Shown: positions 7,791 to 40,342 of the stretch, one piece after another
Numbering within the stretch: the stretch's first letter is position 1
Layout of the letters: every line of letters begins with the position of its first letter
Source of the DNA: an uncultured Pseudomonadota bacterium
GTDB lineage: Bacteria; Pseudomonadota; Gammaproteobacteria; CAJXQU01
NCBI GenBank assembly: GCA_913058255.1
Contig: CAJXQU010000002.1
Location: 1-64,000, forward strand
Reading direction: 5' to 3'
DNA length: 64,000 nt
Translations under genes and position numbers: made by a program
Notes under the pieces: generated by a model
The model's database searches: none
What the model was told of the DNA's origin: nothing
Seen by the model: only the letters and a program-made list of their open reading frames with translations

Positions 7791-10625
7791 ATGGAATACA
7801 TCGTCGGTCAACGATGGGTGAGTAATACGGAGTCCGAACTTGGGTTAGGAATTGTAGTAGAAAATAGTGGTCGAATGATTTCGCTTAGCTTTCCAGCGGC
7901 TGGTGAGCGTCGAACGTATGCGATTGATAATGCGCCGATCAGCCGGGTTGAATATTCAGTAGGTGATGAAATTAGTAGTGATGAAGGTGAAAAAATCATT
8001 ATTACTGAACGCCATGAACAAGATGGCGTATTTATTTATGTCGGTACAGACGAAGCAGGGAACATCAAGCAATTGGATGAGTTGGATCTCGATAGCTTTG
8101 TCCAATTCAGTAAACCGCAAGATCGAATGTTTGCTGGTCAAATTGATAAAAATAGCAGTTTTCAGCTACGTGTTGAAACCTTAAGCTTGTTACGCAAACA
8201 TCAGCAGTCATCCGCTTATGGCTTGCTCGGTCCGCGTGTGCAGTTGTTACCGCATCAGTTTTATATTGCGAATCAAGTTTCTCAGCGTCACTCACCACGT
8301 GTTTTATTAGCCGATGAAGTTGGTTTGGGAAAAACCATTGAAGCAGGTTTGATCTTGCATCATCAGATTATCACCGGAGCAGCTAATCGAGTATTGATCG
8401 TAGTACCTGATTCGTTAGTTCACCAATGGCTAGTAGAAATGCTACGGCGTTTTAATCTTTATTTTACGATTTTGGATGATGAGCGTTGTTTCGCGATTGA
8501 AGAATCAGAAGATGACAATCCATTTGAAACGTCACAGTTAGTATTGTGCAGCCTTTCATTTCTGATCAACAACCCTGAGCGTCAGGCACAAGCCTTAGAA
8601 GCTGGTTGGGATTTAATGATCGTTGATGAAGCACATCACCTCAGTTGGAGTGAGCATGAGGTCAGTCCAGCCTACCAATGTGTAGAGTTATTAGCGCGAC
8701 AAATCCCTGGTTTATTATTATTGACGGCAACCCCTGAACAGCTCGGCATTGAAAGTCATTTTGCTCGTTTGCGCCTACTTGATCCTGATCGATATTATGA
8801 TCTTGAAGCGTTCCGTAATGAAGATGCTGGTTATCAACAGATTAGTGAGTTGATTGATCACTTGCAACATGAAGAATCTGTACAACGTCTACGAGATCTG
8901 CCAGAGCTCGCAATCCAAATGCATGAATATTTGGGAAGTGATTCAGTACTGAAGATTCTTGAAAGTGAGAATGTTGAACAAGCGATAGAGTCTGCAATAG
9001 ACAGTCTAATGGATCGACACGGTACAGGACGCGTCTTGTTTCGTAACACACGTGATGCCGTTAAAGGCTTTCCTGAAAGAAAGCTTAATAGCTATGCATT
9101 AGAGAATCCCAACTTAGCCGATCCAGATACTTCGGTAGAAGATAGGCTGCACCCCGAGGTTTTGCTCGGCGATCAATGGTTGTTTGACGATACACGAGTT
9201 GAGTGGTTAGCAGCTTGGTTAAGTGAGCATCGCGATCAAAAGGTATTAGTGATTTGTGCACTAGCGAATACAGCCCTAGAACTTGAGGAGCATTTACGTA
9301 CACGTTCAGGTATTCGATCAGCTGTTTTTCACGAAGGCTTATCACTGGTGGCACGTGATCGTGCGGCGGCTTATTTTGCTGATGAAGAAGAAGGGGCACA
9401 GATCCTTATCTGTTCTGAAATAGGCAGTGAGGGACGTAACTTCCAGTTTGCACATCACTTGATATTATTTGATCTTCCCTTCAATCCGGATCTTCTCGAG
9501 CAACGGATCGGTCGCTTAGATCGGATCGGCCAAACTGAAACGGTAGAGCTGCATGTGCCTTATCATGTCAATACAGCACAAGAGAGCCTACTGCGTTGGT
9601 ATCATGAGGGTTTGAATGCATTTGAGCGTGTTTGTCCTGTCAGTAGCAAAGTGTTTGAAACACATGAAGATTTGCTACGAGTTTGTCTTCTGAATCAAGA
9701 AGATCAGGAATTAACACAACTGATCACGACGTCTCGTGCATTAACCGAAAGCTTATTAGAGCAGCTTCAGCTGGGTCGAGATCGATTATTAGAGCTCAGC
9801 TCCTGTCATCCACAAAAAGCGGCTGATGTTTTAGACAATGTAACTGGCTCAACGAGTAGTCTCGAGTTGCAAACGTATATGGAGAAAATCTTCGATCACT
9901 TTGGTGTTGATCATCAGGTTCATAGTCAAAATGCGATTATTCTTCACCCAGGCGATCATATGCGTTGTCATTCGTTTCCTGGTCTTACTGAGGATGGTAT
10001 TACAGCAACTTATCTTCGTTCACAAGCGATGAGCAGAGAAGATATGCATTACCTCACTTTGGAACATCCAATGGTGACGGGTGCAACTGATATGATCCTT
10101 AGTGGTGATTTTGGTAATACTGCTTTTTGTACGCTAAAAACGCCATCGTTAAAGCCGGGAACCTTATTGCTTGAAGCGATTTTTATTGTGCATTGTCCCG
10201 CACCTAAATACTTACAGCTACATAGATACCTACCACTGACAACGATTCGAGTCGTTGTTGATAGCGTCAACCGAGACCTGAGCGATATATTAGTGGCGAG
10301 CAAGCTTAATCAAATGGCTCAACGCGTAGAACTTCGATCAGTACAAGAACTCGTCAAGCATGCCAGACCACAGATTAACCAGTTGATTACTGCTGCGGAA
10401 AATAGTGCCACAAAACGACGCGGAGCAATCATCGATGTAGCTCTACAGCAGATGACAGATTCGCAAAATGTTGAGATTGAAAGGTTAAAAGCCCTTGCTG
10501 AAGTCAACCCAAATATTCGACAAGATGAAATTGAATATTTAGCATCTAGCAGCTCTCAACTACAACAGTTTCTGAATGGTTCAACTTTAAAGCTCGATGC
10601 GATCAGGGTGGCGATGGCAACATAG
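7791..10625 (+). CDS. rapA: RNA polymerase-associated ATPase RapA (HepA)
   Basis: RapA is a Swi2/Snf2-type ATPase that binds RNA polymerase and recycles stalled enzyme after transcription. The N-terminal Tudor-like region begins GQRWVSNTESELGLG. Walker A is LLADEVGLGKTIEAG, motif II DEAH in MIVDEAHHLSW, motif III LLLTATPEQLG, and motifs V/VI are CSEIGSEGRNFQFAHH and LLEQRIGRLDRIGQ. The length of about 944 residues is close to the E. coli protein (968). I prefer the ATG at 7791 over the TTG at 7782 because it places GQRW at the same distance from the N-terminus as in E. coli. The C-terminal domain is also conserved (NPNIRQDEIEYL). Confidence 0.96.
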   Translation: MEYIVGQRWVSNTESELGLGIVVENSGRMISLSFPAAGERRTYAIDNAPISRVEYSVGDEISSDEGEKIIITERHEQDGVFIYVGTDEAGNIKQLDELDLDSFVQFSKPQDRMFAGQIDKNSSFQLRVETLSLLRKHQQSSAYGLLGPRVQLLPHQFYIANQVSQRHSPRVLLADEVGLGKTIEAGLILHHQIITGAANRVLIVVPDSLVHQWLVEMLRRFNLYFTILDDERCFAIEESEDDNPFETSQLVLCSLSFLINNPERQAQALEAGWDLMIVDEAHHLSWSEHEVSPAYQCVELLARQIPGLLLLTATPEQLGIESHFARLRLLDPDRYYDLEAFRNEDAGYQQISELIDHLQHEESVQRLRDLPELAIQMHEYLGSDSVLKILESENVEQAIESAIDSLMDRHGTGRVLFRNTRDAVKGFPERKLNSYALENPNLADPDTSVEDRLHPEVLLGDQWLFDDTRVEWLAAWLSEHRDQKVLVICALANTALELEEHLRTRSGIRSAVFHEGLSLVARDRAAAYFADEEEGAQILICSEIGSEGRNFQFAHHLILFDLPFNPDLLEQRIGRLDRIGQTETVELHVPYHVNTAQESLLRWYHEGLNAFERVCPVSSKVFETHEDLLRVCLLNQEDQELTQLITTSRALTESLLEQLQLGRDRLLELSSCHPQKAADVLDNVTGSTSSLELQTYMEKIFDHFGVDHQVHSQNAIILHPGDHMRCHSFPGLTEDGITATYLRSQAMSREDMHYLTLEHPMVTGATDMILSGDFGNTAFCTLKTPSLKPGTLLLEAIFIVHCPAPKYLQLHRYLPLTTIRVVVDSVNRDLSDILVASKLNQMAQRVELRSVQELVKHARPQINQLITAAENSATKRRGAIIDVALQQMTDSQNVEIERLKALAEVNPNIRQDEIEYLASSSSQLQQFLNGSTLKLDAIRVAMAT

Positions 10626-33574: not shown

Positions 33575-36355
33575 TTATTTCTTTGTTGCAATAACTTCCA
33601 TTCCTGTTCTATATCGTGAAGAAATACCATATTTTTTCACCTCAAAGCCATGCTCCTCAAGTAGTGCATACAAACGTTCTCGGCTGAAGTTATGAAAGTG
33701 TTCCAACTCTCCCCAATAGGGATTTCGGTTCTCAGCATTCAGTGCATGCCAAAGTGGGCTGCTCGTATTCGGCATGCTTAAGTAAAGAACACCATTCTCA
33801 TTTAATATGCGGTGGGCAGCTTTTAAGCCTTCTTTTGGGTAAGGCATATGTTCCAAAAGGTTCATCATGCTGACAATGTCTGCGTTGCCTTGATAGTCTT
33901 CCATTTTGCCATGAAAAGCTTCAGCTCCGAAGGCTTGTAAGCCCGTGACATTGTCCAGACGCATTTCGATTCCGGCTGGTTCATAACCATATTCGTAGGC
34001 TGTTAGAAGTAGTGCAGCATTTCCAAAGCCAACATCAAGCCATTTACCTTCACTGCAATAAGGCATTACTTTTTCGATCATAACAGCACTGACTTTTCGA
34101 GCTTCTTCTATATTATGCCCCACCATTTGATGGACATTGGTATCACTAAAAACAAGGTCGAAGGCATCATCTGTAAAATAACCATTGGTAAAATTATGAT
34201 CACAGTCACTACAGATCATCCAGATCATTTTGGCCGGTAAAGGTGTTTTATAAAGTGGATGATGACTGCAATCAGCTATGATGCTGGCTTCAAAATTTTG
34301 GCTATCACATAGAGGGCAAGCTTGATATGGTATACGCATCTGTTTTTCAGTTCGTATTGTTGTAGCCTTCTGATTGTCCTTCACATCAGAGATATGAAAA
34401 GATGTTGCTTTTGTTCCTTCGTCGTGTAAATCCAACATATGTATCAACCCTTTTTGTAGATCATGAGTATATTTTTCTGTGTCGAACAAAGAGCATGTGT
34501 CTCTATTAGCTCTTAGTTTTGATTTGATTTGGTTAAGCTTTTTGGGGTTATGTGCTAGCTCGAGAGCCAATGCCTTATATGAGATAAAGTCGGTGGTGAT
34601 TAACTCATCAAGATCAATAGCTTTTAGAATACTTGCGGCCACTCTAGCGGCAAAACTACGGCCCATACAGGTCATAACAGGAAGTCCAACCCATAGCGCA
34701 TCACTTGCTGTCGTGTGTGCATTACATGGAAAAGTATCGAGGAATAAATCTGCATTTTGAATTCTAGCAAGGTGTTCAGCAGAAGGTAGCTGTTCTGCAA
34801 AGATGATCCTAGCAGGATCGGCGCCTCGTGCTTTTGCTTCACTGAGCAGGTTCTTACCCGCCCACTCATTACTTTCAAGCAGCCAGAGCACACTGCCTGG
34901 TGTTTCTTCAAGCAATTCAATCCAAATATCGAACATTTCAGGCATGATTTTGAAGTTATGATTAAAAGTACAAAAAACAAATGCATCCTCAGGCAGACCA
35001 CATTCTTGTCGTGATGGTACTTTAGGGTTCACTTTTCTTTTTCTATCATTGATCTGATAACTCTCAGGCATATACATGATTTTTTCTGAGTAGTTAGCTT
35101 GTTCCTCTTCAGGAATAATTACCTTATCAGCGATAAAATAGTCAATAGAACTTGTCCCTGTGCTACCGGGGAAGCCTAATAATCTGACTTGGACTGGAGC
35201 TGGTCTGTGAGATAAGATCCCAGGTCGGCAGCCTTCTGTAAGACCTTTCAGATCAACAGCAATATCAATATTCAAATCGGCAATAAAGTGTGCAATTTCT
35301 TCATCAGAATGATCGGTTAGATCATAAAAGTTATTACATACGGACTTAATTCGCTCTCTAATTTCTGAGTGCTCATTCACTCTATTATGAGTTATGGCAT
35401 GAATTTCGAATTGTTGAGGATCTAATAGTTCAAACAATTCTGCGACAAGGAAAGTGGTTGGGTGGTTGTGATAGTCTGTTGCTAAAAATGCAATTTTAAT
35501 TATATCTTCAGGGTTTCTATTACGACGGTTATATAAAGGCTCAGTTAGCTTAACTTCTGTCGTTATCGCACGCACATACTGCTGTGCTGTCGCATGAAGT
35601 ATTTCAGGATCATCAAAAACGCCTAGTAGTGGAAAAGGAGTGACTGTATTCATTACATCAGGTGATTCTGTATGTTCGAGTATATTGTAGATGGATGATT
35701 TTAGGTCTGGGAGTTGAGCTGAATAATCAGACCAATCAGACATTCTCATTCGTAGATACCATAATTTACTGAGAGCGCCACCCAAGGATCCATTAATATC
35801 GAGAGCATTTTGAAATGAAACACTGGCTTCCTTTAACCTGTCTTCAAGAATTAAAAGGGTTCCTAAATTGAAATGAGCAATATAATTGTCAGGCTGAGCC
35901 ACAGTCGCTCTTTGAAAATAATTAATTGCCTCGACAGTCGCGCCTTTTTTATGCAGTGAGTTTCCAAGAATATTTAAAATTTTTGGATGTTCAGGACTCA
36001 TTTCTAAAGCTTGGAGGTAGTAATTGATCGCATCATCTATACGATCTTCTTCGTGAAGCTCTATTGTACACCCAAGGATAAGGTGAGCATCAGCATACTG
36101 AGGGTCTATCTGAATGGCCTGCTCTAATAAGCGAATGGCTTTAGTATGTTCTTTTTTAAGGTTGTGGATTGTTGCAAGGTTCGAATAAATAAGAGCACTA
36201 GCTTGGTTTGCATCGATTAATGATTGATAGCCCTTTTGAGCATATTCTAAATCACCATCTTTGTGTCTACTGATCACCTGATTTAAATCAGGTAACTCCA
36301 CACATGCTCCTATATTAGAATGTGTTGCTATCTGCTTCTCGACGACGTTGTTCAT
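33575..36355 (-). CDS. TPR - O-GlcNAc-transferase-like (SPINDLY, GT41) - methyltransferase fusion, probable flagellin modification
   Basis: This 926-residue protein has three parts. Residues about 20-200 hold TPR repeats (YSNLATIHNLKKEHTKAIRL, LNILGNSLHKKGATVEAIN). Residues about 265-645 are a GT41/OGT catalytic region (IAFLATDYHNHPTTFLVAE, VDLKGLTEGCRPGILSHRPA, VRLLGFPGSTGTSSIDYFIAD split over the block, FCTFNHNFKIMPEMFDIW, DLFLDTFPCNAHTTASDALW, LPVMTCMGRSFAARVAASIL). Residues about 670-926 hold a CxxC...CxxC zinc ribbon (CPLCDSQNF, CSDCDHNF) and a class I SAM methyltransferase (WLDVGFGNAALLLTAYE, NLLEHMPYPKEGL). It is divergent from the flagellin genes, separated by about 200 bp. Inference: it O-glycosylates flagellin and methylates the sugar or a neighbouring group. 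The glycan donor cannot be read from sequence. Confidence 0.87.
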   Translation of the reverse strand: MNNVVEKQIATHSNIGACVELPDLNQVISRHKDGDLEYAQKGYQSLIDANQASALIYSNLATIHNLKKEHTKAIRLLEQAIQIDPQYADAHLILGCTIELHEEDRIDDAINYYLQALEMSPEHPKILNILGNSLHKKGATVEAINYFQRATVAQPDNYIAHFNLGTLLILEDRLKEASVSFQNALDINGSLGGALSKLWYLRMRMSDWSDYSAQLPDLKSSIYNILEHTESPDVMNTVTPFPLLGVFDDPEILHATAQQYVRAITTEVKLTEPLYNRRNRNPEDIIKIAFLATDYHNHPTTFLVAELFELLDPQQFEIHAITHNRVNEHSEIRERIKSVCNNFYDLTDHSDEEIAHFIADLNIDIAVDLKGLTEGCRPGILSHRPAPVQVRLLGFPGSTGTSSIDYFIADKVIIPEEEQANYSEKIMYMPESYQINDRKRKVNPKVPSRQECGLPEDAFVFCTFNHNFKIMPEMFDIWIELLEETPGSVLWLLESNEWAGKNLLSEAKARGADPARIIFAEQLPSAEHLARIQNADLFLDTFPCNAHTTASDALWVGLPVMTCMGRSFAARVAASILKAIDLDELITTDFISYKALALELAHNPKKLNQIKSKLRANRDTCSLFDTEKYTHDLQKGLIHMLDLHDEGTKATSFHISDVKDNQKATTIRTEKQMRIPYQACPLCDSQNFEASIIADCSHHPLYKTPLPAKMIWMICSDCDHNFTNGYFTDDAFDLVFSDTNVHQMVGHNIEEARKVSAVMIEKVMPYCSEGKWLDVGFGNAALLLTAYEYGYEPAGIEMRLDNVTGLQAFGAEAFHGKMEDYQGNADIVSMMNLLEHMPYPKEGLKAAHRILNENGVLYLSMPNTSSPLWHALNAENRNPYWGELEHFHNFSRERLYALLEEHGFEVKKYGISSRYRTGMEVIATKK

Positions 36356-36436: not shown

Positions 36437-36463
36437 TAAAGTAACGGTTGGTTAGGTCGATAA
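36437..36463 (+). promoter_or_regulatory. Sigma-28 (FliA) promoter of flagellin gene 1
   Basis: TAAAGTAA, an 11-bp spacer, and GTCGATAA match the flagellar sigma-28 consensus TAAAGTTT-N11-GCCGATAA closely. It lies about 100 bp before the flagellin ATG. Confidence 0.8.
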
Positions 36464-36563
36464 AGTTGTCAACGCGATTCAAGAATGAATGCGGGTTTTT
36501 ATTTTTTATTTTTACCAAGCAAGAATTGTTTGGTATGTCCAACCTAGAAAAGGAGAAAGGACT

Positions 36564-37397
36564 ATGGCTATTTCTAATATTTCATTAACAGCAGGGATGC
36601 GTTCAAACCTGTTAACACTACAACAAACAGATAATCTATTAACACGTACTCAAGAACGTCTTTCAACCGGTAAAAAAGTAAACAGTGCATTAGATAATGC
36701 ACAGTCTTTCTTTGCTGCCAAAGGTAATACAAATCGTGCAAGTGCTTTAGATTCTCGAAAAGATGGAATGGGACAAGCGATCCAAGTTGTTAAGTCTGCA
36801 GATGCAGGTATTTCAGCAATCAATTCATTGCTTGACCAAGCAGCTGGTATCGTAGCCACGGCAAAAGGAAGTCAATCTAAAACAGGAGATGATGTTGCGC
36901 TAAAGGCACAGTATGACGAAATTATCTTGCAAATAGATGATATCGTTAGTGATTCTGGCTATCAAGGTACAAACCTTTTAAAAGGTGGTGCTACAGATAT
37001 TTTGGATGTTATTTTTAATGCATCCGGTGATAATAAGCTGACTCTAACGGGTGTTTCTTCAGATACTGTAGAGTTAGGTATTGATGCTGCAACGCTTGCA
37101 TTTAATGGCGCGACTGGCGCAAGTTTAGATGCTATCTCTGCGGGGATAACCGCTGCAAAAGCAACGCTAGAAGCAACATCAACGTCTTTATCTGGTAGCT
37201 TGGGTGTTATCAATGCACGTCAGGAATTTACTAATGCGATGATTAATACGTTGCAAGTAGGTGCTGATAAATTGACATTGGCTGATACGAACGAAGAAGG
37301 TGCAAACATGTTGTCTCTGCAAACAAGACAACAATTGGGCACAATCTCTTTAAGCTTAGCTAACCAGTCTGCTCAAGCTGTATTAAGCTTGTTCTAA
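36564..37397 (+). CDS. Flagellin 1 (short type)
   Basis: This 277-residue flagellin has the conserved D0/D1 ends (ISLTAGMRSNLLTLQQTDNLL...RLSTGKKVNSALDNA and NTLQVGADKLTLADTNEEGANML...LSLANQSAQAVLSLF) and a very short central part, so no D2/D3 surface domains. This length and the ending resemble alphaproteobacterial flagellins. The start is ATG 36564 with AAAGGAG; an upstream in-frame codon at 36489 adds an unrelated leader. It is 72-90 percent alike with its tandem partner by eye, with a central block that is identical in DNA. Ser/Thr residues in the centre are possible glycosylation sites. Confidence 0.94.
   Translation: MAISNISLTAGMRSNLLTLQQTDNLLTRTQERLSTGKKVNSALDNAQSFFAAKGNTNRASALDSRKDGMGQAIQVVKSADAGISAINSLLDQAAGIVATAKGSQSKTGDDVALKAQYDEIILQIDDIVSDSGYQGTNLLKGGATDILDVIFNASGDNKLTLTGVSSDTVELGIDAATLAFNGATGASLDAISAGITAAKATLEATSTSLSGSLGVINARQEFTNAMINTLQVGADKLTLADTNEEGANMLSLQTRQQLGTISLSLANQSAQAVLSLF
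36941..37236 (+). repeat. Identical block shared by the two flagellin genes (copy 1)
   Basis: By direct reading, these 296 bases are identical to 38090-38385, at a constant offset of 1,149 bp. Flanking parts of the two genes carry scattered substitutions. This is the pattern of recent gene conversion. Confidence 0.9.
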
Positions 37398-37452
37398 AGT
37401 TAATAAGTTTAGTTTCACAGTGGGCTAAAGCTTTACTGTTAAGCGACATAGG

Positions 37453-37485
37453 AAAGGTGGGATAGGTAACTATTCCACCTTTTTT
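37453..37485 (+). terminator. Rho-independent terminator of flagellin 1
   Basis: A 13-bp stem (AAAGGTGGGATAG with CTATTCCACCTTT) with loop GTAA is followed by a T-run. It separates the two flagellin transcripts. Confidence 0.88.
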
Positions 37486-37564
37486 GTTATTGCTCGTATT
37501 TTTTAGTATATATTCAAAATCTTGACACTTTTAAGTAAGTTTTCTGGCAGGTGTCAAAAAAAAC

Positions 37565-37591
37565 TAAAGTTTTTTCTCTAGCTGTCGTTAC
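37565..37591 (+). promoter_or_regulatory. Sigma-28-like promoter of flagellin gene 2
   Basis: TAAAGTTT, an 11-bp spacer, and GTCGTTAC: perfect -35 and a -10 with three mismatches to GCCGATAA. It lies 122 bp before the second flagellin ATG. Confidence 0.65.
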
Positions 37592-37712
37592 ACTTTATGA
37601 CATATTCTATTTTGGAATATGGGGCACTTCAGGACGGAGTGCGTTAAAGGAGTAACAACTCATCAGACAAGAATCGTCTGATGTTTGCCAACCTAGAAAA
37701 GGAGAAAGGACT

Positions 37713-38546
37713 ATGGCTATTTCTAATATTTCCCTAAGCGCGGGTATGCGTTCTAACCTTCTAACTTTGCAAAATACAGATTCACTGTTGACGCAAACGC
37801 AGAATCGTTTATCTACCGGTAAAAAAGTAAACAGTGCATTAGATAATGCACAGTCTTTCTTTTCTGCCAAAGCTAACACAAGTCGTGCGAGCGCTTTAGA
37901 TTCTCGAAAAGATGGTATGGGACAAGCGATCCAAGTTGTTAAGTCTGCAGATGCTGGTATTTCAGCAATCAATTCACTGCTTGACCAAGCTGCTGGTATC
38001 GTCGCCACTGCAAAAGGAACTCAATCTAATACATCAGATGATGTTGCACTAAAGGCGCAGTTTGACGAAATTATCTCGCAAATAGATACTATCGTTAGTG
38101 ATTCTGGCTATCAAGGTACAAACCTTTTAAAAGGTGGTGCTACAGATATTTTGGATGTTATTTTTAATGCATCCGGTGATAATAAGCTGACTCTAACGGG
38201 TGTTTCTTCAGATACTGTAGAGTTAGGTATTGATGCTGCAACGCTTGCATTTAATGGCGCGACTGGCGCAAGTTTAGATGCTATCTCTGCGGGGATAACC
38301 GCTGCAAAAGCAACGCTAGAAGCAACATCAACGTCTTTATCTGGTAGCTTGGGTGTTATCAATGCACGTCAGGAATTTACTAATGAGATGATCAATACGT
38401 TGCAAGTAGGTGCTGATAAGTTGACATTGGCTGATACGAACGAAGAAGGTGCAAATATGCTGGCTCTGCAAACGAGACAACAATTAGGCACAATCTCTCT
38501 AAGTTTAGCTAATCAGTCATCACAAGCAGTATTAAGATTGTTCTAA
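37713..38546 (+). CDS. Flagellin 2 (short type)
   Basis: This 277-residue flagellin is a tandem paralogue of the gene at 36564, with the same ribosome-site leader (CCTAGAAAAGGAGAAAGGACT) trimmed to the last 20 bases in both. N-terminal ISLSAGMRSNLLTLQNTDSLL and C-terminal LSLANQSSQAVLRLF keep the filament-core contacts. Differences from copy 1 are conservative and concentrated in the first 125 residues. It has its own promoter and terminator, so the two copies can be expressed independently. Confidence 0.94.
   Translation: MAISNISLSAGMRSNLLTLQNTDSLLTQTQNRLSTGKKVNSALDNAQSFFSAKANTSRASALDSRKDGMGQAIQVVKSADAGISAINSLLDQAAGIVATAKGTQSNTSDDVALKAQFDEIISQIDTIVSDSGYQGTNLLKGGATDILDVIFNASGDNKLTLTGVSSDTVELGIDAATLAFNGATGASLDAISAGITAAKATLEATSTSLSGSLGVINARQEFTNEMINTLQVGADKLTLADTNEEGANMLALQTRQQLGTISLSLANQSSQAVLRLF
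38090..38385 (+). repeat. Identical block shared by the two flagellin genes (copy 2)
   Basis: Partner of 36941-37236, with no difference seen in 296 bases. The block covers the gene centre and the beginning of the C-terminal D1 region. Confidence 0.9.
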
Positions 38547-38615
38547 GGGATCAAGAAGGTCCTGATTAAAGGGAATGATCGTGAGGTTTATCCTTTTAAT
38601 TATATGGTAATAAGG

Positions 38616-38645
38616 GATGGGGCAGGTGACTGCTCCATCTTCTTT
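38616..38645 (+). terminator. Rho-independent terminator of flagellin 2
   Basis: GATGGGGCAG and CTGCTCCATC form a 10-bp stem with loop GTGA, followed by TTCTTT. The layout parallels the flagellin 1 terminator. Confidence 0.78.
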
Positions 38646-38754
38646 AAATGAGAGTTTTTAAATGAGTTAATTGAGATCTCTCCGAAGATTAAATTTTAGA
38701 AGTGATTAAAATTTAGTTGGAAAAGTTTAGCTTATCTCAAGGAGGAGAGACGCT

Positions 38755-39564
38755 ATGATAAAACTTAACGAAGGGATCTCGCTGGTTTCTTCTGTTGTAC
38801 AAAAGCCTGAGCAAATAAGGCCCAATGGCAGCAGTTTGCCTGACACGAGCTCCTCAAAAAATAAAACCTACTCTGATAATATATCCTTATCATCTAGTGA
38901 TGCTGCTTTCGCTGCGTCACAATCTCAGAAAGATTCTTTAAATAATGCAGCAACAACTATCCGTGCTGCGAATAAAATCATGGATGATGTTGTTAAAGTT
39001 GTCGGACAGAAGCAAGATGAAATTTCTCAATACGAAAAAATATATCCTCCGTTTCAAAATGAGAACTCCGATAAAGTCGAGCGTTTAAAATCGATCCCAG
39101 GTTTTAAAAAACAATTAGATGCACTGACTTTAGTTCCAGACAATAAAGAGCTAGCGACAGGGATCACCAAAAACTTATCTGACTCAGAAATTAAAAATGA
39201 GTTTTTTTCAGACTTAGAAAACCTGAAAGTACCGCAACATGAAAATGTTTTAAATAGAGATGAAAATGGCCTAAACATTGCATCTGACGATATAAAAGCA
39301 ATTGATCTAGAGGTACGACAACTAGGTCGTGACCTGTTAACAATTGGTCATGAGTTTGGAAACATTAGAGCTGGTGTAACACAAAGTTCTGATTCAATTG
39401 CTACCAGTATTTCGACAACAGCTGAAGGTATGGGGATAGAGATGCTTAATAGCGAACAAGAAGCAAAACGGAAGAGTGAAGAAGTGAGACAAGAACTTTC
39501 TACCTATAAAGATGAAAGCATCGGAACAGAGCAAAACCGAATGTTTTTGGAGAGCTTAAGATAA
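38755..39564 (+). CDS. Unknown protein between flagellin and flbT
   Basis: The 269-residue protein is hydrophilic and helical, with no signal peptide or membrane segment. I do not recognise it. The N-terminal 40 residues are Ser-rich and look disordered; residues about 50-85 (AATTIRAANKIMDDVVKVVGQKQDEI) and 180-235 (heptad-rich, IRAGVTQSSDSIATSISTTAE) could form coiled coils of the kind seen in flagellin D0/D1 and axial proteins. RBS AAGGAGGAG precedes the ATG, and flbT starts directly at its stop codon, so it is translated with flbT-flaF. Position suggests a flagellar role such as a FlaG-like or export-linked factor. Confidence 0.6.
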   Translation: MIKLNEGISLVSSVVQKPEQIRPNGSSLPDTSSSKNKTYSDNISLSSSDAAFAASQSQKDSLNNAATTIRAANKIMDDVVKVVGQKQDEISQYEKIYPPFQNENSDKVERLKSIPGFKKQLDALTLVPDNKELATGITKNLSDSEIKNEFFSDLENLKVPQHENVLNRDENGLNIASDDIKAIDLEVRQLGRDLLTIGHEFGNIRAGVTQSSDSIATSISTTAEGMGIEMLNSEQEAKRKSEEVRQELSTYKDESIGTEQNRMFLESLR

Positions 39565-39975
39565 ATGCCATTAAAGATAGCGTTAAAGCCTAAAGAAAAG
39601 TTATATATCGGGGGGGCTGTGATCATGAATGGCGGCACCCATGGAGAATTCACGGTATTGAACTCAACTACGATATTACGCGAGAAAGACATCTTAACAG
39701 AGGAGACTGCTACGTCTCCTTGTCGTCGAATTTATTTGACTGTCCAACTGATGTATATGGATGGAAATGAAAGCTTGGCTCAGCACCACAAAAATTATTG
39801 GTCTTTAGTAGAAGACGTAATGAAAGCAGCTCCAAGCTTTGAGAAATTACTGATAGAAATGAGTGAGTTAATACTCGCTGAAAATTATTATAAGGCTTTA
39901 AAGCTGGCCAAAAAATCAATTGAAAAGGAAACCGAGGTTCTTAAACATGCAGAATTCAGCAGCGAATGCGTATAA
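39565..39975 (+). CDS. flbT: Flagellin post-transcriptional regulator FlbT
   Basis: In alphaproteobacteria FlbT binds flagellin mRNA 5' regions and controls their stability. The 136-residue protein matches the family at LKPKEKLYIGGAVIMNGG, ATSPCRRIYLTVQLMYMD and the helical C-terminus (FEKLLIEMSELILAENYYKAL). The ATG directly follows the preceding stop codon. Its end overlaps flaF by 29 bp. The family is characteristic of alphaproteobacteria, so its presence beside FleQ/FleS/FleR is unexpected. Confidence 0.87.
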   Translation: MPLKIALKPKEKLYIGGAVIMNGGTHGEFTVLNSTTILREKDILTEETATSPCRRIYLTVQLMYMDGNESLAQHHKNYWSLVEDVMKAAPSFEKLLIEMSELILAENYYKALKLAKKSIEKETEVLKHAEFSSECV

Positions 39976-40342
39976 CACAATAAGTAAGGCTTCAATGTCG
40001 CCAAGGCAACTCGAGGCAGCCATTCTGAATAGATCCGCTTCTATGTTAAAGGCTGTGCATGATAATTGGGATGCACCGGGCTCTGAAGAAAAACTTGACG
40101 AAGCGTTAAAATACAATCAAAAGTTGTGGAGTCTGTTTCAAGCTGATCTAACTGATGACGAAAGCCCGTTACCTAAAAAATTGAGAGAAGATATTCTTTC
40201 TTTAAGCATCTTTGTTGATCGACGAACGTTTGAACTGATGTCATCACCAGTACGTGAGAAAATAACAGTATTGATCAATATTAACCAAAATATTGCTGCA
40301 GGACTTAATACTGTTGTTGAAAATGAGGCTGTTCCTGCTTAA
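39947..40342 (+). CDS. flaF: Flagellin secretion/assembly factor FlaF
   Basis: FlaF is an alphaproteobacterial flagellin chaperone that acts together with FlbT. The 131-residue protein shows the family pattern: AYNTISKASMSPRQLEAAIL, LKYNQKLWSLFQADL, LREDILSLSIFVDRRTFELM and LININQNIAAGL. I chose ATG 39947 (MQNSAANAYN) because the family starts shortly before AY; the frame also has an ATG at 39920. It overlaps flbT and ends the flagellin operon. Confidence 0.85.
   Translation: MQNSAANAYNTISKASMSPRQLEAAILNRSASMLKAVHDNWDAPGSEEKLDEALKYNQKLWSLFQADLTDDESPLPKKLREDILSLSIFVDRRTFELMSSPVREKITVLININQNIAAGLNTVVENEAVPA

Follow-up and report, generated by a model that had tools for sequence, protein, structure and literature searches.

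A predicted flagellin O-glycosyltransferase fused to a sugar-type methyltransferase in an uncultured gammaproteobacterium

Overview

A single gene facing two flagellin genes in an uncultured gammaproteobacterium seems, on sequence and structural modelling, rather more likely than not to encode a cytoplasmic enzyme that O-glycosylates flagellin and also contains a methyltransferase for tailoring the sugar. The gene occupies positions 33575–36355 on the minus strand of the window, the 64,000-nucleotide stretch of DNA that was analysed. Its open reading frame is intact, starts with ATG and encodes one chain of 926 aa, composed of a TPR array, a GT41 catalytic region, a zinc ribbon and a SAM methyltransferase. 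If this assignment is true, one gene together with the adjoining flagellin would make up a compact, soluble system able both to glycosylate a protein and to methylate the sugar.

Domain Architecture of the Fusion Protein

The TPR array (residues ~30–190, positions 35786–36268, minus strand) matches several Pfam TPR families and PDB entries. The GT41 catalytic region covers residues 206–633 (34457–35740, minus strand, the genome coordinates of PF13844), with Glyco_transf_41 scoring 278.3 bits against a Pfam cut-off of 25. The C-terminal module (residues 663–926, positions 33578–34369, minus strand) consists of the zinc ribbon and a class I SAM methyltransferase. In the latter, Methyltransf_23 reaches 68 bits over residues 768–906 (cut-off 27), and the SAM methyltransferase motif LDVGFGN is found at residue 773. 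The zinc ribbon lies between both catalytic regions and is formed by C680-x2-C683 and C715-x2-C718; all four cysteines are invariant in a seven-sequence alignment (A1) of relatives of the C-terminal module. Hence the union of the four parts in one chain, as proposed in the initial annotation, is confirmed by both Pfam and the invariant cysteines. A search of the genome_contigs collection with the whole 926-aa protein returned distant TPR proteins as the sole matches.

Flagellin Genes and the Flagellar Cluster

The two flagellin genes, whose products are the presumed substrates, are located at 36564–37397 and 37713–38546 on the plus strand, divergent from the fusion gene; each encodes 277 aa, and the two products are 94% identical. 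The true start of the first gene is 36564, as opposed to the ATG at 36489 of the mechanical open reading frame. A sigma-28-like promoter of the form TAAAGTAA-N11-GTCGATAA is present for flagellin gene 1 at 36437–36463 (plus strand), and a second one for flagellin gene 2 at 37565–37591, where shuffling predicts 0.6 equally good sites for the whole window. The promoter search of the window revealed no obvious sigma-28 site for the fusion gene, a point against the proposed role. The central 70 residues of the flagellin (141–210) contain 18 Ser/Thr and 2 Lys, a composition that fits sugar addition to Ser/Thr.

The fusion gene forms the edge of a flagellar cluster with flbT, flaF, a PilZ-type gene, three genes of the sigma-54-regulator type, fliE and fliF. 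In a congener (G002), the flagellin genes, flbT and flaF follow in the same order, again with a divergent TPR-GT41 gene, and weaker sigma-28-like promoters stand at matching positions before the flagellin genes. The divergent placement beside two flagellin genes claimed earlier is therefore real, and the arrangement is not a product of chance because it is conserved in the congener. A second congener, G001, lacks both flagellin and GT41 genes and was considered as phyletic evidence of linkage; this was dropped, since the contig carrying fliF ends after 5.2 kb and the absence reflects an assembly gap.

The filament module of the window at 36564–40342 looks hybrid. Flagellins, FlbT and FlaF, all three of the alphaproteobacterial kind, are followed by gammaproteobacteria-like genes of the sigma-54-regulator type and by fliE/fliF. 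Neither fliD nor fliS was seen in this interval, whereas both are present at the same place in three other gammaproteobacterial genomes (G057, G072, and G201). A 269-aa protein encoded between the flagellins and flbT (38755–39564) is kept in the congener (E 1e-45) and has no match in Pfam or NCBIfam.

TPR-GT41 Genes in Other Genomes

The adjacency to flagellin could be incidental, as it would be for many bacterial TPR-GT41 proteins, the 926-aa protein then modifying another target. Indeed, most TPR-GT41 genes in approximately 48 neighbourhoods do not lie beside flagellin, standalone copies on plasmids have other surroundings, in one case a YadA-like protein and in another a type I secretion cluster, and the second GT41 gene of the organism itself is away from flagellar genes. 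Nevertheless, TPR-GT41 genes also occur in the flagellin loci of five gammaproteobacterial genomes (G009, G057, G072, G201, and G730). In total, 7 of the ~48 neighbourhoods are linked to flagellin, while by a rough estimate well under one would be expected if the genes were unlinked. On the tree, the flagellin-linked label must change four times or more, which means that the link arose repeatedly. With the same location in the congener and this independent recurrence, an unrelated target appears improbable, and the proposed linkage to flagellin is upheld. We consider it likely that flagellin is the substrate, as inferred from this pattern.

The flagellin-linked genes vary in design. The gene facing flagellin in G072 and G201 carries a pair of TPR-GT41 units within a single chain; chains of ~1475 aa with two complete units are divergent from flagellin at L044 (5971–10413) and L048 (8770–13188). 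In G730, a separate gene for an FkbM-type methyltransferase adjoins the flagellar TPR-GT41 gene. Methyltransferase or methyltransferase-like tails on TPR-GT41 proteins were found in G002, G329 (two genes), G232, G462 (FkbM type), and G661, those of G232 and G661 being below the Pfam cut-offs.

Several further TPR-GT41 genes were observed. The second copy of the genome under study (G000:C20) is located at 8061–10220 of locus L041 and is also present in the congener (L042). The plasmid genes (L120/L121) come from Pseudomonas asturiensis, where a type I secretion cluster and a large protein annotated as heme utilisation are nearby, and from Collimonas arenae, where the neighbour is the YadA-like protein; these surroundings suggest glycosylation of surface proteins. 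In G117, a TPR-GT41 protein is fused to a GT8 glycosyltransferase domain (L052, 8647–11556).

The GT41 Half and Its Sugar Donor

The best solved relatives of the GT41 half are XcOGT and animal OGT, and SPINDLY scores far lower. Residues H298, K469, H547/T548/T549 (HTT), and D552 align with the residues that serve OGT in catalysis and donor binding. By these matches, the GT41 half is probably a protein O-glycosyltransferase.

Synthesis of pseudaminic or sialic acids requires NeuB. No match to NeuB (PF03102) was found in G000, G001, or G002, which are 96, 93, and 97% complete, respectively, while the control search detected PF03102 in Caulobacter vibrioides. This makes pseudaminic acid chemistry of the FlmG type unlikely for the fusion protein. 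The donor is probably a UDP-sugar rather than pseudaminic acid, judging from the sequence comparisons, and UDP-hexose or UDP-HexNAc would be the most likely candidates. A search for Maf (PF01973) also gave no match, in a test whose control matched only archaea.

The Methyltransferase Half and Its Likely Acceptor

The METHYLTRANSFERASE half of the protein is rare: among 369 genomes of the class, a close standalone copy occurs only in G303, with ~51–52% identity. Close standalone relatives in genus g375, which belongs to another class, are orphans without glycan or flagellar neighbours, which speaks against the favoured reading. Twelve IMG/VR viral contigs encode standalone relatives with 36–48% identity to the C-terminal module, and a search of INPHARED phages with the methyltransferase produced no matches. 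On these viral contigs (L087 to L098), several of the zinc-ribbon methyltransferases adjoin capsid- or terminase-like genes, and the adjacent gene in L087 and L090 encodes a phrog_1574 protein, which has a D-D-D stretch and looks similar to a GT-A glycosyltransferase. Glycan tailoring of virions is a possible role of the viral enzymes.

A model of the C-terminal module attained a mean pLDDT of 93.6 because the alignment included the viral-contig relatives; the single-sequence model of the methyltransferase had a pLDDT of 40. In a VIA comparison of the former with solved structures, the top thirteen rows were all sugar C-3-methyltransferases, with Z of 25.0 and rmsd of 2.4 over 241 residues for MtmC and Z of about 21 to 23 for KijD1 and TcaB9. 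The alignment to these three enzymes spans the zinc domain and the core (model residues 11–264). The next best structures were the sugar N-methyltransferases CalS10 and TylM1 (Z 19 to 20), and Foldseek ranked the same sugar methyltransferases first. In an HMM alignment, H181, E224, and H225 of TcaB9, each of which is mutated in deposited TcaB9 structures, fall on H836, E885, and H886, a two-residue tag offset in the numbering being allowed for. The coupling of methylation to the glycan, as originally suggested, thus gains a sugar-type methyltransferase from all three comparisons. How far the substrate can be deduced in this way is moderate, since class I methyltransferase folds are widely shared.

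Methylation of the flagellin polypeptide itself, on Lys or another side chain and independently of any sugar, would be FliB-like in effect. It has a precedent: lysine methylation of flagellins has been described, and in enterobacteria fliC has FliB genes as neighbours (PMC4875605). However, the central flagellin region contains few lysines, and the nearest folds are sugar methyltransferases, which favours sugar over lysine as the methyl acceptor. We accordingly see little prospect for a polypeptide acceptor and regard a sugar, provided that the module is active, as the fairly probable one on the basis of the model.

The 926-aa protein ends at the point where the third domain of the MtmC type starts. 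This domain of MtmC, TcaB9, and KijD1, which in MtmC lies beyond chain residue 266 of ~418, is missing from the fusion protein; whether the module would methylate a carbon of a 4-keto sugar is therefore uncertain.

Proposed Mechanism

The TPR array would bind newly made FlaA/FlaB, and the GT41 domain, using a nucleotide donor, would attach a sugar to Ser/Thr in the exposed part of flagellin. The same sugar would be methylated by the zinc-ribbon methyltransferase, whether still on the donor or already bound to the protein, and the modified flagellin would then be exported. We infer catalysis itself, as well as which sugar is used, which of its atoms receives the methyl group, and in what order the steps run. 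Both reactions could take place one after the other on a single TPR-bound substrate; methylation ahead of transfer is just as possible because the nearest structural relatives act on nucleotide sugars. In the latter order, the C-terminal module would methylate the nucleotide sugar and the GT41 domain would pass the methylated sugar to flagellin. The closest folds, those of the NDP-sugar methyltransferases MtmC, TcaB9, and KijD1, agree with it, as does the location of the G303 relative next to a gene for a nucleotide-sugar epimerase. At the same time, the third domain of those enzymes is absent, and fusion to a transferase would also suit action on the bound product, which leaves methylation ahead of transfer a serious contender at somewhat less than an even chance.

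Relation to Known Systems

De Maayer and Cowan (2016) distinguished eleven types of GT41 enzyme within the flagellin islands of enterobacteria and reported that all GT41 enzymes (194 strains), except eight of GT41-11, also have AdoMet methyltransferase domains (PMC4875605). As in the window, a GT41 enzyme of the SPINDLY/OGT type and an AdoMet methyltransferase are joined in one chain beside flagellin. The fusion studied here differs from those enzymes, with which it was compared by description only, in its lineage and in its zinc-ribbon module of the C-methyltransferase type. The earlier belief that this design had not been described does not hold: the GT41-methyltransferase architecture has been known since the 2016 report, at the level of annotation and without biochemistry. 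The literature search found no later paper joining flagellin, GT41, and methyltransferase. What is new is the module with the zinc ribbon and the sugar C-methyltransferase fold, its phage-contig relatives, the tail swap between congeners, and the repeated linkage to flagellin outside enterobacteria. The enterobacterial flagellin GT41s, mentioned once in 2016, thereby become part of a broader pattern in which several unrelated types of methyltransferase occur.

FlmG of Caulobacter crescentus, an enzyme that combines TPR and GT-B parts, adds sugar to every Caulobacter flagellin and binds flagellin through its TPR part (PMC7591256). It is soluble, as is predicted for the fusion protein; both have an N-terminal TPR region and a GT-B domain, and the genes of both are tied to flagellin. 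Unlike it, FlmG has 596 residues, carries no methyltransferase, and depends on pseudaminic acid (PMC7591256), whereas NeuB was not found in the genome of the window. XcOGT and animal OGT share the TPR and GT41 parts and the matching catalytic residues but lack a methyltransferase fusion, and the targets of animal OGT are numerous nucleocytoplasmic proteins. MtmC, TcaB9, and KijD1 likewise possess an N-terminal zinc domain and a methyltransferase core, with the three TcaB9 residues matched; however, they stand alone, belong to pathways for antibiotic sugars, are 12–17% identical to the window module, and carry the third domain.

Exchange of the C-Terminal Module Between Congeners

The TPR-GT41 parts of the window protein and its G002 counterpart are ~50% identical over residues 23–669 and are sisters in the tree with 100/100 support. 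Homology ends at residue 669 of the 926-aa protein. Beyond this point, the two C-terminal modules have no similarity above chance (local score of 37 vs. a shuffled maximum of 51), i.e., the tail has been swapped wholesale. The G002 tail comprises a 270-residue module and a different methyltransferase (Methyltransf_11). The middle module of the G002 protein (residues 690–960) has no Pfam or PDB match and appears GT-B-like by eye only.

We tentatively suggest that a conserved flagellin-binding TPR-GT41 front bears exchangeable sugar-tailoring tails, and that the tail in the window, of the C-methyltransferase type and with phage-contig relatives, modifies the sugar while the chain holds flagellin; this full reading is less probable than its opposite. 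If it is true, the exchange of a single domain would give closely related species different flagellin glycans. To judge from the two congeners, the diversity of flagellin glycans may arise through module exchange on a constant targeting front.

The G002-type tail also exists on its own, whole or in part. In G404 (L167), a separate gene in the vicinity of a TPR-GT41 gene encodes the tail as a free protein of 500 aa, and in G502 (L161) its first half occurs as a free protein.
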